From positions 1 to 64,000 of the forward strand of contig VGVR01000015.1 of the NCBI GenBank assembly GCA_016873995.1: 64,000 nt of DNA. Direction: 5' to 3'. A model generated the notes under the pieces. That model searched no databases, had not been told where the DNA came from, and saw only the letters and a program-made list of their open reading frames with translations. Positions 42,328 through 51,088 of this stretch are shown piece after piece. A program made the translations under genes and the position numbers. The first letter of the stretch is position 1. Each line of letters begins with the position of its first letter. Source of the DNA: Gemmatimonadota bacterium. Lineage in GTDB: Bacteria > Gemmatimonadota > Gemmatimonadetes > Longimicrobiales > Gaopeijiaceae.

Positions 42328-43599
42328 ATGAGCACCGACTTCATCGTGTCGATCCGGGTGCGCGAGGGGAGGGCCGAGATCGCACTCCGCGGCGAGTATC
42401 GCGGTGCCCCCTTGGACGCCGTCCGCTCCCTTCCGGGGCGAAAATGGGATCTGCTCCGACGAGTCTGGGTCGTCCCGCGACCCGACCAGGTCATCGCGAC
42501 CCTGAGGAACCGGCTCGGGGAGGAGCACGTCCAGGTCTCGGGGGAGGTGAGCCCGACGCTTCGAGTGCCCCAGCGCCCGAGCGCTCCCGGTGAGCCCCAG
42601 GCCGGCACCGCAGTCGCTCCGGGCGCTCCGGGGGAGCACCGGGCCGGCACCGCAGTCGCTCCGGCCGCTCCGGCTGACGCGGGTTCTCGAGCCGCTGCCG
42701 CGCACCCTGCTGCCCCAGTCCCTCCGGCCGCCGCAGAAATGCCGGGGGCGCCCGGCGATCCCCTCGATCGTGTCCGGGTGGCGCTCACCCTGCGCGGGTA
42801 CAGCCCGCGGACCCGCAAGGTCTACCTCGGGCACTTGCGTCGGTTCATCGCGTGGTGCGGCGGAGACGTGGCGCGCGTTCCTGAGGAAGCCGCCGCACAG
42901 TGTCAGGCCTACCTGATCGAGCTCGCCGACCGGCGAGAGGTGTCGCGGAGCTATCAGAATCAGGTCGTGAGCGCCATGCGCTTCCTGTGTGAGTCCGTGC
43001 TGGGTCAGCCTGCGCTCGCGCTCCGTGTGCCCCGTCCCAAGAGGGATAGACGGCTGCCGGCCGTGCTGAGTCCCGGCGAGGTGATGCGCCTACTCACGCG
43101 GGCCCGCAACCCCAAACATCGCGCGCTCCTGATGCTCCTCTACTCGGCAGGCCTCAGGGTGGGAGATGTCGTGCGCTTGAAGGCGGCGGACCTCGATGTC
43201 GCGCGCGGGCTCGTGCGCGTGCGGAGGGGGAAGGGGGACAAGGATCGATACACCCTGCTTTCCAAGCGTGCCCTCGAGGCCGTTCAGATCTATCTGGCAG
43301 CCTATCCCACGGAGGAGTGGCGCTTCCCCGGTGCCCGCCCCGAGCGACACCTCACGTCCCGCACCGTCCAGCACGTCCTCAAGAGAGTGGCCAAGCAGGC
43401 GGGTCTGCCCAAGGAGGTCACGACGCACACCCTGCGGCACAGTTTCGCGACCCACCTGTTGGAAGGCGGCACGAATCTGCGCGTCATCCAGGAGCTCCTC
43501 GGCCATCAGAGCGCACGCACCACGCAGATTTACACCCACGTGGCCAACTCCACTCTGGAAGCCGTCCGCAGCCCCATCGACAACCTCGAGGAGCGCTAG
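42328..43599 (+). CDS. Tyrosine recombinase with unusual N-terminal module
   Basis: The ATG at 42328 opens a 423-residue protein. Residues 1-75 (FIVSIRVREGRAEIALRGEY, GRKWDLLRRVWVVPRPDQVI) form a small module resembling HARP-type nucleic-acid-binding repeats, followed by a Pro/Ala linker to about residue 145. A SAM-like core-binding domain (RVALTLRGYSPRTRKVYLGH) and a catalytic domain follow with R277 (SAGLRVGDVV), K302-305 (RGKGDKDRY), H367-x-x-R370 (THTLRHSF), H393 (LLGHQSARTT) and Y402 (IYTHV), so it looks active. The end VRSPIDNL resembles IntI, but the IntI-specific insertion between K and HxxR is absent. Downstream are repeats and an attC-like palindrome. Confidence 0.85.
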   Translation: MSTDFIVSIRVREGRAEIALRGEYRGAPLDAVRSLPGRKWDLLRRVWVVPRPDQVIATLRNRLGEEHVQVSGEVSPTLRVPQRPSAPGEPQAGTAVAPGAPGEHRAGTAVAPAAPADAGSRAAAAHPAAPVPPAAAEMPGAPGDPLDRVRVALTLRGYSPRTRKVYLGHLRRFIAWCGGDVARVPEEAAAQCQAYLIELADRREVSRSYQNQVVSAMRFLCESVLGQPALALRVPRPKRDRRLPAVLSPGEVMRLLTRARNPKHRALLMLLYSAGLRVGDVVRLKAADLDVARGLVRVRRGKGDKDRYTLLSKRALEAVQIYLAAYPTEEWRFPGARPERHLTSRTVQHVLKRVAKQAGLPKEVTTHTLRHSFATHLLEGGTNLRVIQELLGHQSARTTQIYTHVANSTLEAVRSPIDNLEER

Positions 43600-43831
43600 G
43601 GCACGCAGCCTAACGCCCACGCGACTAGCTTGCGTCGCGACAGTGGGCGGTCAAACTTGGCGGGCAGGCCCGCGGGCGCGACACCCGCCCAATTAACCCG
43701 AAACGCCACGGCCACAACCCCCGGGGCCGATGGAGCCACAGCACACCGGTTCCATCCCCAATAGGGAGTTATCCGAAACGGGCACGACCGTATGTGGTTC
43801 GGTCGGCGCCGAACTTCAACCGCATCAGTTG

Positions 43832-44095
43832 CGCGCCGCTCGATGGTCCAAGTCAGCAGGCGCAATGGCGCCCCTCAGGGTCAGTGAGACGATCGTGATC
43901 CTAGCGCGCGGCTGCGCTTCACTTGGGTCGATGATGTCCGTTTCTGGCTCGTGCGGCACCTCGTCGTTCGGCGCCTGGGCCGGCGCCGGATTCCAGCAGC
44001 TTCTTCGCGCCGCTCGATCGTCCAAGTCATCGACCGCAATGGCGCCCCTCAGATCCAGAGTGAGGGCGATACGTTCTCGAGCGGCGCCTCCCCGA
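43832..44095. repeat. Diverged direct repeat, 174-bp period
   Basis: CGCGCCGCTCGAT(G/C)GTCCAAG starts at 43832 and 44006, and GCAATGGCGCCCCTCAG occurs exactly at 43862 and 44036. Copies are about 60 bp well matched, with weaker similarity on both sides (GGCGCC blocks upstream, CAGTGAG/CAGAGTGAG downstream). They lie 230-500 bp after the recombinase. The 43600-44720 interval has no credible coding sequence; long ORFs here are low-complexity readings of the repeats. Confidence 0.75.
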
Positions 44096-44405
44096 CGGCC
44101 GTTGCCATGCAATGTGGGCTCTGTGCCGCGTCGGGAGTCCGGCGCCTGCCATCGAGTCTTCACGTATATCCTTGTGCCTCGGTCGAGTGTTTGGGTCGGC
44201 GGTTTGGGCGGCTGCCGTCGGCGGATGTACGTGATGGGAGGCGCGCGTACGTATTTCGACTCGTCGACGCTCGTGCCGCGGAGATCTCGGTGGACTCGTC
44301 TCGCGCCTTGATGAGGACCGCGCCGCGACCGGGTCGCACGCCGACGACCGGCTCCTGGGCGAGCGAAGGAAGTTGGGTGCGTATGGCTGATAAGGTGCCC
44401 GCATC

Positions 44406-44566
44406 GTATAACAATGTGGTTCGCGCCTCCGCGCGCCTGCGGCGCGCTCCGGAGTACACGGCGCATAGTTTCTGGTGCGCGGTGGACGGTGAGGGCGTAG
44501 TTTGGCGGTACATGGCTCGGAGCCGTTCGTGCCTGGCGCCGCGTCGCGAACCTCTGAACGTTATAC
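44406..44566 (+). repeat. attC-like palindromic recombination site candidate
   Basis: The left arm is GTATAAC (44406-44412), AATGT, GGTTCGCG (44418-44425); the right arm is CGCGAACC (44545-44552), TCTGAAC, GTTATAC (44560-44566). The two 7-bp ends and the two 8-bp inner boxes are perfect inverted complements with 5- and 7-nt spacers, the R''-L''...L'-R' layout of integron attC sites. The 119-nt centre contains a further hairpin (GCGCGCC-TGC-GGCGCGC, 44431-44447). R boxes deviate from GTTRRRY at one position, and total length (161 bp) is long. A GCCTAAC box at 43609-43615, just after the recombinase, is another R''-like sequence. Confidence 0.5.
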
Positions 44567-44723
44567 GACAGTTGACTCCATGGACGATACGCCTGGTGAG
44601 CCGAGGTAGGCGGCGGCACATTGTCGCTCTGCCAGCTGGGTCCGCGCCGCGGCGAGGGCCTCGCCTGATGGCCATCGGATCCACAAGGCAGTCAGAACCT
44701 CCCACCCCATCTCGCACACATTC

Positions 44724-44945
44724 CAGTTAGTCTGCTCAAGTCCAAGCAACGTGTCGCCGACCACGCGGAAGTCTTCACCCCGTCTTGTTTGGTCGAGGCA
44801 ATGCTCGACCTGGTGAAAGGGGAGACGGAGCGCATTGATTCGCGCTTCCTCGAGCCCGCGTGCGGGAGCGGGAATTTTCTCGTAGCAATCCTGCGGCGCA
44901 AACTCGCAGCTGTTGAGCTCAAGTACGGGAGCGGTCCGTTCGACC
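44724..44945 (+). pseudogene. Fragment of an N6-adenine DNA methylase
   Basis: The frame reads SLLKSKQRVADHAEVFTPSC then LVEAMLDLVKGETERIDSRF, LEPACGSGNFLVAILRRKLA and AVELKYGSG. This is the region around SAM-binding motif I (PACGSGNF) of Eco57I/type I-like N-6 methylases. Neither the true N-terminus nor the catalytic NPPY motif follows; after about 44945 the frame turns into a peptidase sequence. It is a short relic of a restriction-modification or phage-defence methylase, truncated at both ends. Confidence 0.75.
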
Positions 44946-46088
44946 CCTGCCTGGTGACTCCCGCGGGCACGGTCGACCTCGAAGCCGTTACGGGTCGCTT
45001 CGACCCTGAGTGGCGCGTCTTATGCTCGTTCCTCCTCGGACGACAAGGGACCGATCGTTGCGCTCCTCAATGCGGTTGATGCCTTACGCGCGACGGGGCG
45101 GCAACCGGCTTGGAATCTGCGCGTAGTCGTGGACGGACAGGAGGAAGGGGCGCCACCGCCAAACCATTTCCGTCGGTTCATGGCGGATCGAGGCGCGAGT
45201 TTGGGCGCCGACGTGGCCATAACGCTGGACGGGCCTCGACATCCCAGCGGAAGGCCGACCATCTACCACGGGGTTAGGGGCGGCGTCACCGTTCGGCTCA
45301 CCGTCTTCACCGCGTCCGGGGACCTGCACAGCGGCAACTACGGCAACTGGGCCCCCGACCCGTCGGTTCGACTCGCTCATCTCCTGACCAGCATGAAGGA
45401 CGAGGACGGCAACATCCTGATCTCGGGATTCTACGACGATGTGATTCCGCTCACACCGGCGGAGCAGGAAGCGCTCGAGGCCATACCGAATGTGGAGGCC
45501 GCACTCGCTGAGACCTTCGGGATCGCCCAACCCGAACAGGCCTCGGGGCGACTCGAGGTGAAACTGAACCGGCCGACGCTCAACGTTCTTGCCATGGAAT
45601 CCGGGGGCGGATTGAGCGGGGCCGTACCCGCAATACCGGCTTGGGCAGGAGCGGCAATTCAGATGCGACTCGTCAATGGCCTCGATCCTGAGAAGCAGAC
45701 GGCTCTCGTGGTCGAGCACGTTCGCAGTCGAGGATATCATGTCTTGACCGATCGCGATCCGACGGACGAGAAACGACGCCGCTACCCTCGGCTCGCCCGC
45801 GTGTCGTCGAATGGTGGGACTCGTGCAGCACGCGTGCCCATGGAAGGGCGGCTGAGCACAGTCCTGACAGAAGCGCTCACCGTCGACGGTGTGCCCCCCG
45901 TACGTTTGCCGACGCTCGGCGGGAGCCTCCCGTTCGCGGAGCTCAGTGAGGGTCTCGGGATTCCGACTGTCGGTGTCTCCTTGGTGAACCACGACAACAA
46001 TCAGCACGCATCGAACGAGAACCTACGCCTTGGTAATCTCTGGCAGTCCATTGAACTGCTGGCGAGAATCTTGGTCATGCCACGCTGA
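44946..46088 (+). pseudogene. M20 dipeptidase remnant, 5'-truncated and frameshifted
   Basis: From about 44946 to 45020 one frame reads TVDLEAVTGRFDPEWRVL; the next frame then carries on YARSSSDDKGPIVALLNAVD (the catalytic Asp region), VVVDGQEEGAPPPNHFRRFM (Glu-Glu), GNYGNWAPDPSVRLAHLLTS and IPTVGVSLVNHDNNQHASNE to the stop at 46088. These match M20 CNDP/PepV-type dipeptidases. The first half, with the HxD zinc ligand, is missing and a +1/-1 shift near 45019-45022 breaks the rest. A GTG at 45129 could start a 319-residue product, but it would lack the active site. Confidence 0.75.
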
Positions 46089-49165: not shown

Positions 49166-51088
49166 ATGGCCGCGTCCACGATCCGCTTCACGCTCCCCGA
49201 CGGTAAGGTCCTCGAGCTCGCGCGCGGGTCTACGGCTCTGGATCTCGCCGCGGTGATCGGGCCGCGGCTCGCCAAGGCCGCGCTGGCCGCCGTGATCGAT
49301 GGCCAGACGGTGGGGCTCATGGAGCCGCTCGAGGAGGGCGGCGCAGTCCGGATCCTCACCGAGAAGGATGCCGCGGCGCTTCCGGTGCTGCGCCACTCGG
49401 CGGCGCACGTCCTGGCGACGGCGGTGCGCGAGCTTCGACCCCGTGCAGGGATCGGCTTCGGGCCCGCGATCGAGGACGGCTTCTACTACGACTTCGACGT
49501 CGCGGAGCCGTTCACGCCCGAGGACCTCGCCGCCTTCGAGGCGAAGATGGCCGAAGTCGTGGCCAAGGACATGCCGTTCGGCCGGCGTCGCGTCGACAAG
49601 GCGGAGGCGCGTGCGCTCTTTGCCGACGATCCGCTCAAGCTCGAGCGGCTGGAGGAGTTCTCGGACGACGAGGTGATCACGGTCTACCAGAACGGACCGT
49701 TTCTCGACCTCTGCAAGGGTCCGCACGTGCCCAGCACGGGGCGGCTGAAGCACTTCAAGCTGCTCTCCGCGGCGGGTGCGTATTGGCGCGGCGATCACCG
49801 TCGGCAGATGCTGCAGCGTATCTACGGCACGGCGTTCCACACGAAGGCCGAGCTGGACGAGCACCTGCACCGGCTCGAGGAGGCACGGCGTCGCGACCAT
49901 CGGAGGCTCGGTCGCGAGCTCGACCTCTTCCAGTTCTTCCCGGTGTCACCCGGCGCCGCCTTCTGGACTCCCCGCGGCACCACGCTCTACAACACGCTGG
50001 AAGCGTTCGTGCGTGAGCGGCAGCGCGACGCGTTCCTCGAGGTGAAGACCCCGCTGCTCTACACCAAGGCGCTCTGGGAGCAGTCGGGACACTGGGGGAA
50101 GTACCGGGAGAACATGTTCCTCGTGCTCGACAACGAGTCGGGCGAGCACGACATGTCGCTCAAGCCGATGAACTGCCCGTCGCATCACCTCTATTATGCG
50201 TCGGCCACGCACTCGTACCGTGAGCTGCCCGTCCGGTACGCCACACTCGACGTACTGCACCGGAACGAGGTGTCGGGTGCGCTCTCGGGCCTAACCCGCG
50301 TGCGGCAGTTCGCGCAGGACGACTGCCACGTCTACCTGCGCGAGGATCAGATCGCGGACGAGGTGAAGTTCCTCATGGACTTCATCTTGGGCCACTACGA
50401 GACGTTCGGGCTGAAGTCGAGCCTCAAGTTCGCCACTCGGCCCGAGCAACGCATCGGGAGCGACGAGCAGTGGGACCGCGCCGAAAATGCGCTGCGCGCC
50501 GCGCTCGAGGCGACCGGGCGCGCATACGAGGTGCAGGCCGGGGACGGCGCCTTCTACGGGCCGAAGATCGACTTCCACGTGACCGACTCGATCGGCCGGC
50601 ACTGGCAGCTCGGCACCATCCAGCTCGACTACATGGCGCCCGAGCGGTTCGAGCTGGAGTACGTGGGTGAAGACAATGCGCCGCACCGCCCCGTGGTCAT
50701 CCACCGCGCCGTGTGCGGCTCCTTCGAGCGCTTCATCGCCATCCTCATCGAACACTTCGCGGGCGCGTTCCCCACCTGGCTCGCGCCGGAGCAGGTGAGG
50801 GTGCTCCCCGTGTCCGAGAAGTGGACCGCGAGCGGTGCCGAGCTGGTGGCACAGCTCAGGGCGGCGAGCATTCGCGCCGAGCTCGTCGACCGTGAGACGC
50901 TCCCGTATCGCATTCGCGAGGCGGAGACGCTGAAGCTGCCCTACATGGCCATCGTCGGCGAGCGGGAGGCGGGCGACGGCACCGTGGCAGTACGGAAGCG
51001 CGGGGCGGAGAAGAAGCAGGAGGTCATGAGCCGCGACGCGTTCGTGGCGACGCTGCTCGAGGAGATCCGGACGCGGTCGCTGGGCTGA
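49166..51088 (+). CDS. thrS: Threonine--tRNA ligase
   Basis: ATG 49166 begins MAASTIRFTLPDGKVLELAR, the TGS domain, followed by the editing domain (HSAAHVLATAVRELRP, GPAIEDGFYYDFD; HxxxH and C/H zinc site), the class II catalytic core (TPRGTTLYNTLE, MNCPSHHLYYAS, RNEVSGALSGLTRVRQFAQD motif 2, GSFERFIAILIEHFAGAFPT motif 3) and the anticodon-binding domain. 640 residues, normal. The 247-bp upstream gap has no T-box; I see only a possible TTGACT (49106) -35 element. It opens the thrS-infC-rpmI-rplT-pheST order. Confidence 0.97.
   Translation: MAASTIRFTLPDGKVLELARGSTALDLAAVIGPRLAKAALAAVIDGQTVGLMEPLEEGGAVRILTEKDAAALPVLRHSAAHVLATAVRELRPRAGIGFGPAIEDGFYYDFDVAEPFTPEDLAAFEAKMAEVVAKDMPFGRRRVDKAEARALFADDPLKLERLEEFSDDEVITVYQNGPFLDLCKGPHVPSTGRLKHFKLLSAAGAYWRGDHRRQMLQRIYGTAFHTKAELDEHLHRLEEARRRDHRRLGRELDLFQFFPVSPGAAFWTPRGTTLYNTLEAFVRERQRDAFLEVKTPLLYTKALWEQSGHWGKYRENMFLVLDNESGEHDMSLKPMNCPSHHLYYASATHSYRELPVRYATLDVLHRNEVSGALSGLTRVRQFAQDDCHVYLREDQIADEVKFLMDFILGHYETFGLKSSLKFATRPEQRIGSDEQWDRAENALRAALEATGRAYEVQAGDGAFYGPKIDFHVTDSIGRHWQLGTIQLDYMAPERFELEYVGEDNAPHRPVVIHRAVCGSFERFIAILIEHFAGAFPTWLAPEQVRVLPVSEKWTASGAELVAQLRAASIRAELVDRETLPYRIREAETLKLPYMAIVGEREAGDGTVAVRKRGAEKKQEVMSRDAFVATLLEEIRTRSLG

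Follow-up and report, generated by a model that had tools for sequence, protein, structure and literature searches.

A probable chromosomal integron of a variant class in a Gemmatimonadota bacterium, with an I2-less recombinase that carries a HARP-like module

We analyzed a 64,000-nucleotide stretch of Gemmatimonadota DNA (the window) in which a tyrosine recombinase gene is followed, in the same direction, by an attI-like core, one gene cassette and an attC site. Judged from its sequence features, this locus is very probably a small integron of the chromosome that belongs to a variant class; its recombinase carries a HARP-like N-terminal module and lacks the I2 insertion of integron integrases (IntI). 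The features of the class that the sequences show are the attI core, a family of attC sites, a rule for cassette ends, co-direction of integrase and array, the absence of I2, attC sites that are mostly without extrahelical bases, and the lack of an I2-bearing IntI in most array-bearing host genomes. The recombinase would insert circular cassettes at attI, a double-stranded site 169 nt beyond the end of its gene, with a cut at G^TT, and would excise them by attC x attC recombination, attC being folded from one strand. Cassettes would build up along the direction in which the integrase gene is transcribed. The array of the window genome has a single cassette left. We infer that the cassettes are moved by the adjacent recombinase, for which a duplicated cassette in the related genome G008 gives indirect support, and that the substrate of recombination is the bottom strand in folded form. 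The preliminary description of the locus had proposed a distinct, non-IntI cassette system; the I2-less recombinase and its same-direction arrays agree with that proposal, but integron variant is the better name.

The recombinase and its N-terminal module

The recombinase gene occupies positions 42328-43599 of the forward strand and encodes 423 amino acids, including a SAM-like core-binding domain (42763-43011, PF13495) and a catalytic domain (43066-43548, PF00589, 3.6e-41). The enzyme had been described as catalytically complete, and the whole catalytic set (R277, K302, H367, R370, H393 and Y402) is indeed conserved. Its best match in the PDB, by fold and by sequence, was the integron integrase 2a3v, and its best NCBIfam match was the integron-integrase profile TIGR02249, which it matched in two separate stretches and with 220.9 bits, under the cut-off of 265. 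The alignment to IntI4 (2a3v) is likewise split, with ~22 recombinase residues facing ~64 in IntI4, and therefore the I2 or patch insertion between the beta-hairpin and HxxR is missing. Profile, alignment and structure model concurred on this absence, which the preliminary description had also recognized. The match to NF040815 (XerA type) was just under the cut-off. A catalytic domain without the insertion is shared with XerA and with archaeal and bacterial Xer proteins, but Xer has neither a cassette array nor a HARP-like module. The window genome holds other Xer-like genes.

The different N-terminus remarked on earlier proved to be a HARP-like beta-alpha-beta-beta-alpha-beta module in the AlphaFold model (aa 5-72; 42340-42543, forward strand; motif G-R-x-W...W-x-x-P), predicted with a pLDDT of ~79. 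Foldseek ranked the XPB N-terminal domain and the SMARCAL1 HARP domain highest, with a weak match in either case (E ~0.1). Fold and motif are thus alike at a remote level of similarity, and the module is fused to a tyrosine recombinase here but to a helicase in SMARCAL1 and XPB. Pfam HARP matches were obtained for 4 of 18 homologous N-terminal modules (up to 5e-7), and one full protein, homologue L123, was over the PF07443 cut-off (26.2 vs. 25); the window recombinase's own module had no match to PF07443. The HARP-like module is common to most array-linked I2-less recombinases. HARP is known to act on forked and branched DNA, and HARP domains fused to other SNF2 proteins confer annealing-helicase activity (PMC4035279). 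Either this module or the side hairpin of the attC site described below may replace I2 and extrahelical bases in recognition.

The attI core, the cassette and the attC fold

An attI-like core, CCCAATAGGGAG^TTATCCG (43750-43780, forward strand), was recognized by a motif in homologous loci, and its predicted cut, G43768^T43769, lies 169 nt past the recombinase stop codon. Cores of the type CAA(T)A..GAG^TTA are common to nine homologous loci, where they are found ~140-375 nt past the stop codon, at the point where the first cassette joins. The GCCTAAC box pointed out in the preliminary description is present at 43608-43614, but it was rejected as attI, the conserved insertion point being 43768^43769. 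The core sites delimit a single gene cassette of 792 bp (43769-44560, forward strand), whose start, GTTATCCGA, complements its own R'' (TCGTATAAC) at 8 of 9 positions. The cassette has no credible ORF, and between 43600 and 44780 there is no credible gene, which upholds the initial remark that more than 1 kb 3' of the recombinase is without one. Two repeats spaced by 174 bp had also been reported. They are real, being 58-bp direct repeats of 83% identity (43832-43889 and 44006-44063, forward strand), but both lie inside the single cassette and are cassette content; neither they nor the cassette has another copy in the same genome.

Right past attC, at 44789-46088, are pieces of two genes, for a DNA methyltransferase and an M20 peptidase, which may be cassettes in decay or scars of insertions. 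The preliminary description had likewise listed fragments of other genes beyond the palindrome. The methyltransferase fragment (44789-45079, forward strand) is of the MmeI type and below the Pfam cut-off. Past 44568 no second cassette boundary was found, with no matching R'' up to window position 50000, and no second attC. Homologues of the flanking genes were not found beside the relatives' recombinases, and there is no conserved gene neighbourhood. With one ORF-less cassette, gene fragments downstream and no second attC, the window locus could be a decayed integron remnant, functional only in relatives. Such decay would be compatible with the variant class as a whole; the recombinase is intact with all its catalytic residues, however, and so are attI and attC, and we see decay as a minority possibility, if an appreciable one.

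The attC site itself (44404-44568, forward strand) was recovered by a scan for R and L arms, by a covariance model and by covariation of its fold. The palindrome had been credited with attC-style end boxes, and these exist: the R arms, TCGTATAAC/GTTATACGA (R'' 44404-44412, R' 44560-44568), pair perfectly over 9 bp, and the L arms, GGTTCGCG/CGCGAACC (L'' 44418-44425, L' 44545-44552), over 8 bp. A side hairpin, CTCCGCGCGCC..GGCGCGCTCCGG, sits on the L'' side, and L'' has no extrahelical base. This was the sole site in a strict R+L scan of the 64 kb, three dinucleotide shuffles giving 1, 0 and 0 matches; folding energy alone was unremarkable (z = -1.4). A covariance model trained on five G008 sites and one G022 site, with the window site left out, scored the latter at 78.5 bits (E = 4e-18). 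The next-best window match had E = 0.17, so the attC-model check that had been put forward places the site far above background. An Rfam search returned no match. Matches on contig C6 of the same genome were rejected as further attC sites, having no R/L arrangement.

The attC family folds into a three-way junction. Its R arms are followed by an unpaired spacer and a 9-bp L stem, and there is an inner stem as well as a side hairpin on the L'' side. In a set of 60 matches (50 distinct), 22 of 28 pairs showed compensatory changes, with a covariation score of 0.387 vs. 0.114 for shuffled data. The alignment had been fitted to the model and is thereby biased toward the structure, but slid and shuffled controls were far below. 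These changes bear on whether attC sites might recombine as ordinary double-stranded sites, in an XerA-like reaction for which the inverted repeats would serve only for binding. The nearest enzymes without I2 are XerA-type double-strand recombinases, which speaks for such a reaction. Double-strand recognition would nevertheless not require compensatory changes all along an extended three-way-junction fold, at a distance from the cut, and the bottom-strand pairs have a slight excess of G-U over A-C (30 vs. 12, a weak signal among related sequences). We consider a double-strand reaction improbable.

Strand choice at canonical attC sites is directed by extrahelical bases on the L'' arm (PMC2727003), and I2 docks these bases (PMC7790495). 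Within the attC family they are present in 6 of 50 members. Arrays beside I2-bearing IntIs (G034, Methylobacillus and a class 1 plasmid) have attC sites with extrahelical bases, whereas behind I2-less enzymes the L arms are mostly bulge-free, either perfect or with 1x1 mismatches. The Bacteroidia array L096, with bulges in some sites, is an exception. The strict, bulge-free scan missed canonical arrays and a bulge-tolerant version was used for this comparison; at loose thresholds it also gives spurious sites, and its totals were not used as statistics. The best reading is that structure recognition in the variant class would be independent of I2. At locus L079 (15423-18038) of G034, a genome of the same family, an I2-bearing IntI is accompanied by a co-directional downstream array with canonical attC sites that have two extrahelical bases.

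Cassette arrays in relatives and in other phyla

The recombinase was found in 18 of 59 related genomes. In 13 of 14 homologous loci the contig breaks off no more than 1.3 kb downstream of it, and no contig breaks off in the 4 kb upstream, a pattern that a repetitive or variable region behind the recombinase would produce. In the complete genome G008, a cassette array comes directly after the recombinase orthologue and runs in the same direction, encoding GrpB, ParE-, Gp49- and PIN-type proteins with attC-like sites between them. Cassette starts complement R'' of their own attC over 7-10 bp in every case tested, and seven chained attC pairs were counted vs. none in three shuffles. One G008 cassette is duplicated, with a copy at the first position, and the identical stretch is bounded exactly by core sites. 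Of 26 consecutive pairs on array contigs of G001, of the same genus as the window genome, and of G033, 15 obeyed the cassette rule, compared with 13% at random. Recurrence of the palindrome beside homologous recombinases and variable cassettes downstream of them, both envisaged in the preliminary description, were thus observed in relatives. By covariance model, the attC family occurs in 11 of the 59 genomes, 8 of which belong to the 18 that carry the recombinase (Fisher p = 0.0018). Same-family sites are also scattered off the main array of G008:C1 (2438851, 2440671, 3026661, 3749391 and 3755896). Behind a related I2-less recombinase that is without the HARP-like module, locus L056 (G024:C1) has a larger array, of at least 12 cassettes, whose attC type is different.

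A wider sample from genome and viral collections comprised 160 loci with related recombinases, 90 of which were tested for cassette links. Sixty-five links lay downstream (450 kb) vs. 11 upstream (664 kb), and shuffled sequence gave 0.16 per 10 kb. Array-linked I2-less recombinases were seen in Bacteroidota (Flavobacterium enshiense, Rufibacter, Algibacter onchidii, Natronoflexus, Seonamhaeicola and Winogradskyella), in Paenibacillaceae (Saccharibacillus kuerlensis) and on two viral contigs. The IMG/VR contigs L167 and L168 each show an I2-less recombinase and then a cassette array.

Conceivably, conventional I2-bearing integrases made such arrays, either in trans or before being lost, and the I2-less recombinase beside them is a bystander with, for example, an Xer-like role in dimer resolution. 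I2-bearing IntIs are held by 6 of the 18 relatives with the recombinase, and G007, which has no close I2-less homologue, combines the same attC type with an I2-bearing IntI. In G010, G022 and G034, which have both enzyme types, an IntI might act in trans. By contrast, no I2-bearing IntI above the TIGR02249 cut-off was found in G000, G001, G008 and G033, nor in any of the 12 genomes of other groups tested from the wider array-linked set. The recombinase stands immediately before attI in independent lineages, separate Xer genes are present in these genomes, and extrahelical bases accompany the I2-bearing IntIs (G034, Methylobacillus) but are mostly absent from the other arrays. We judge construction by conventional integrases very improbable. 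That the palindrome is a chance structure or a terminator, with no cassette system in the window, would suit the unexceptional folding energy and the ORF-less cassette, but is already contradicted by the independent covariance model (E = 4e-18), the conserved attI core and the cassette-end rule, and retains next to no probability. Points that do count against a variant integron are the published view that cassette capture requires I2, G007 with its IntI, the two enzyme types in G010, G022 and G034, G024 without the HARP-like module and the single cassette of the window.

Relation to known integrons and the origin of I2

IntI integrons of the class 1 and Vibrio type have in common with the putative variant the G^TT cut at attI, tandem cassettes, attC sites with R and L boxes, the cassette-end rule and toxin-antitoxin-type cassettes. 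The variant differs from them in having no I2, in falling outside the IntI clade, in its HARP-like N-terminus and in mostly lacking extrahelical bases. Furthermore, intI diverges from the array in the classical layout, whereas the variant integrase is co-directional with it. The preliminary description had stressed a recombinase in the same direction as its array; this was seen in relatives, but orientation alone is already known from Treponema integrons, in which intI is transcribed toward attI in the direction of the cassettes (PMC3607928). We found no statement that the Treponema IntI is without I2.

I2 is held to have allowed recombination of single-stranded attC (PMC7790495), and cassette capture is held to require it (Messier and Roy 2001, as cited in PMC7790495); its presence has served as a criterion for picking integrases (PMC2426708). 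In the openly licensed literature we found no account of array-bearing integrases that lack I2. Integron definitions rely on an I2-bearing integrase, and I2-less arrays would be missed or called integrase-less clusters. A search for I2-bearing IntI would report them as such clusters (CALIN, attC clusters without intI); unlike CALIN, they adjoin a recombinase, which scores under the integrase profile cut-off. Missed arrays of this kind may partly explain why Bacteroidota and Bacillota are reported with almost no complete integrons (PMC9024848).

In our tree, 11 I2-bearing IntIs formed one clade (SH-aLRT 100) with the window recombinase outside, and the array-linked I2-less enzymes fell into two groups outside that clade, as placed by a quick tree method with several deep branches open. 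The tree speaks against a recent loss of I2 from within IntI, whether or not the ancestor had the insertion. More tentatively, and with slightly less than even confidence, we propose that a broad, separate integron lineage uses neither I2 nor extrahelical bases when it recombines folded single-stranded attC, the HARP-like fork- or junction-binding domain (or the side hairpin) acting as the structure reader. Such a lineage would either predate I2 or mean that single-strand cassette recombination arose twice. The variant class makes the origin of integrons testable, since it allows one to ask if a natural I2-less enzyme acts on folded attC, and what takes the place of I2. As a separate observation, the I2-bearing IntI at L082 (G031:C178:8434-9372) has the same kind of N-terminal HARP-like module.
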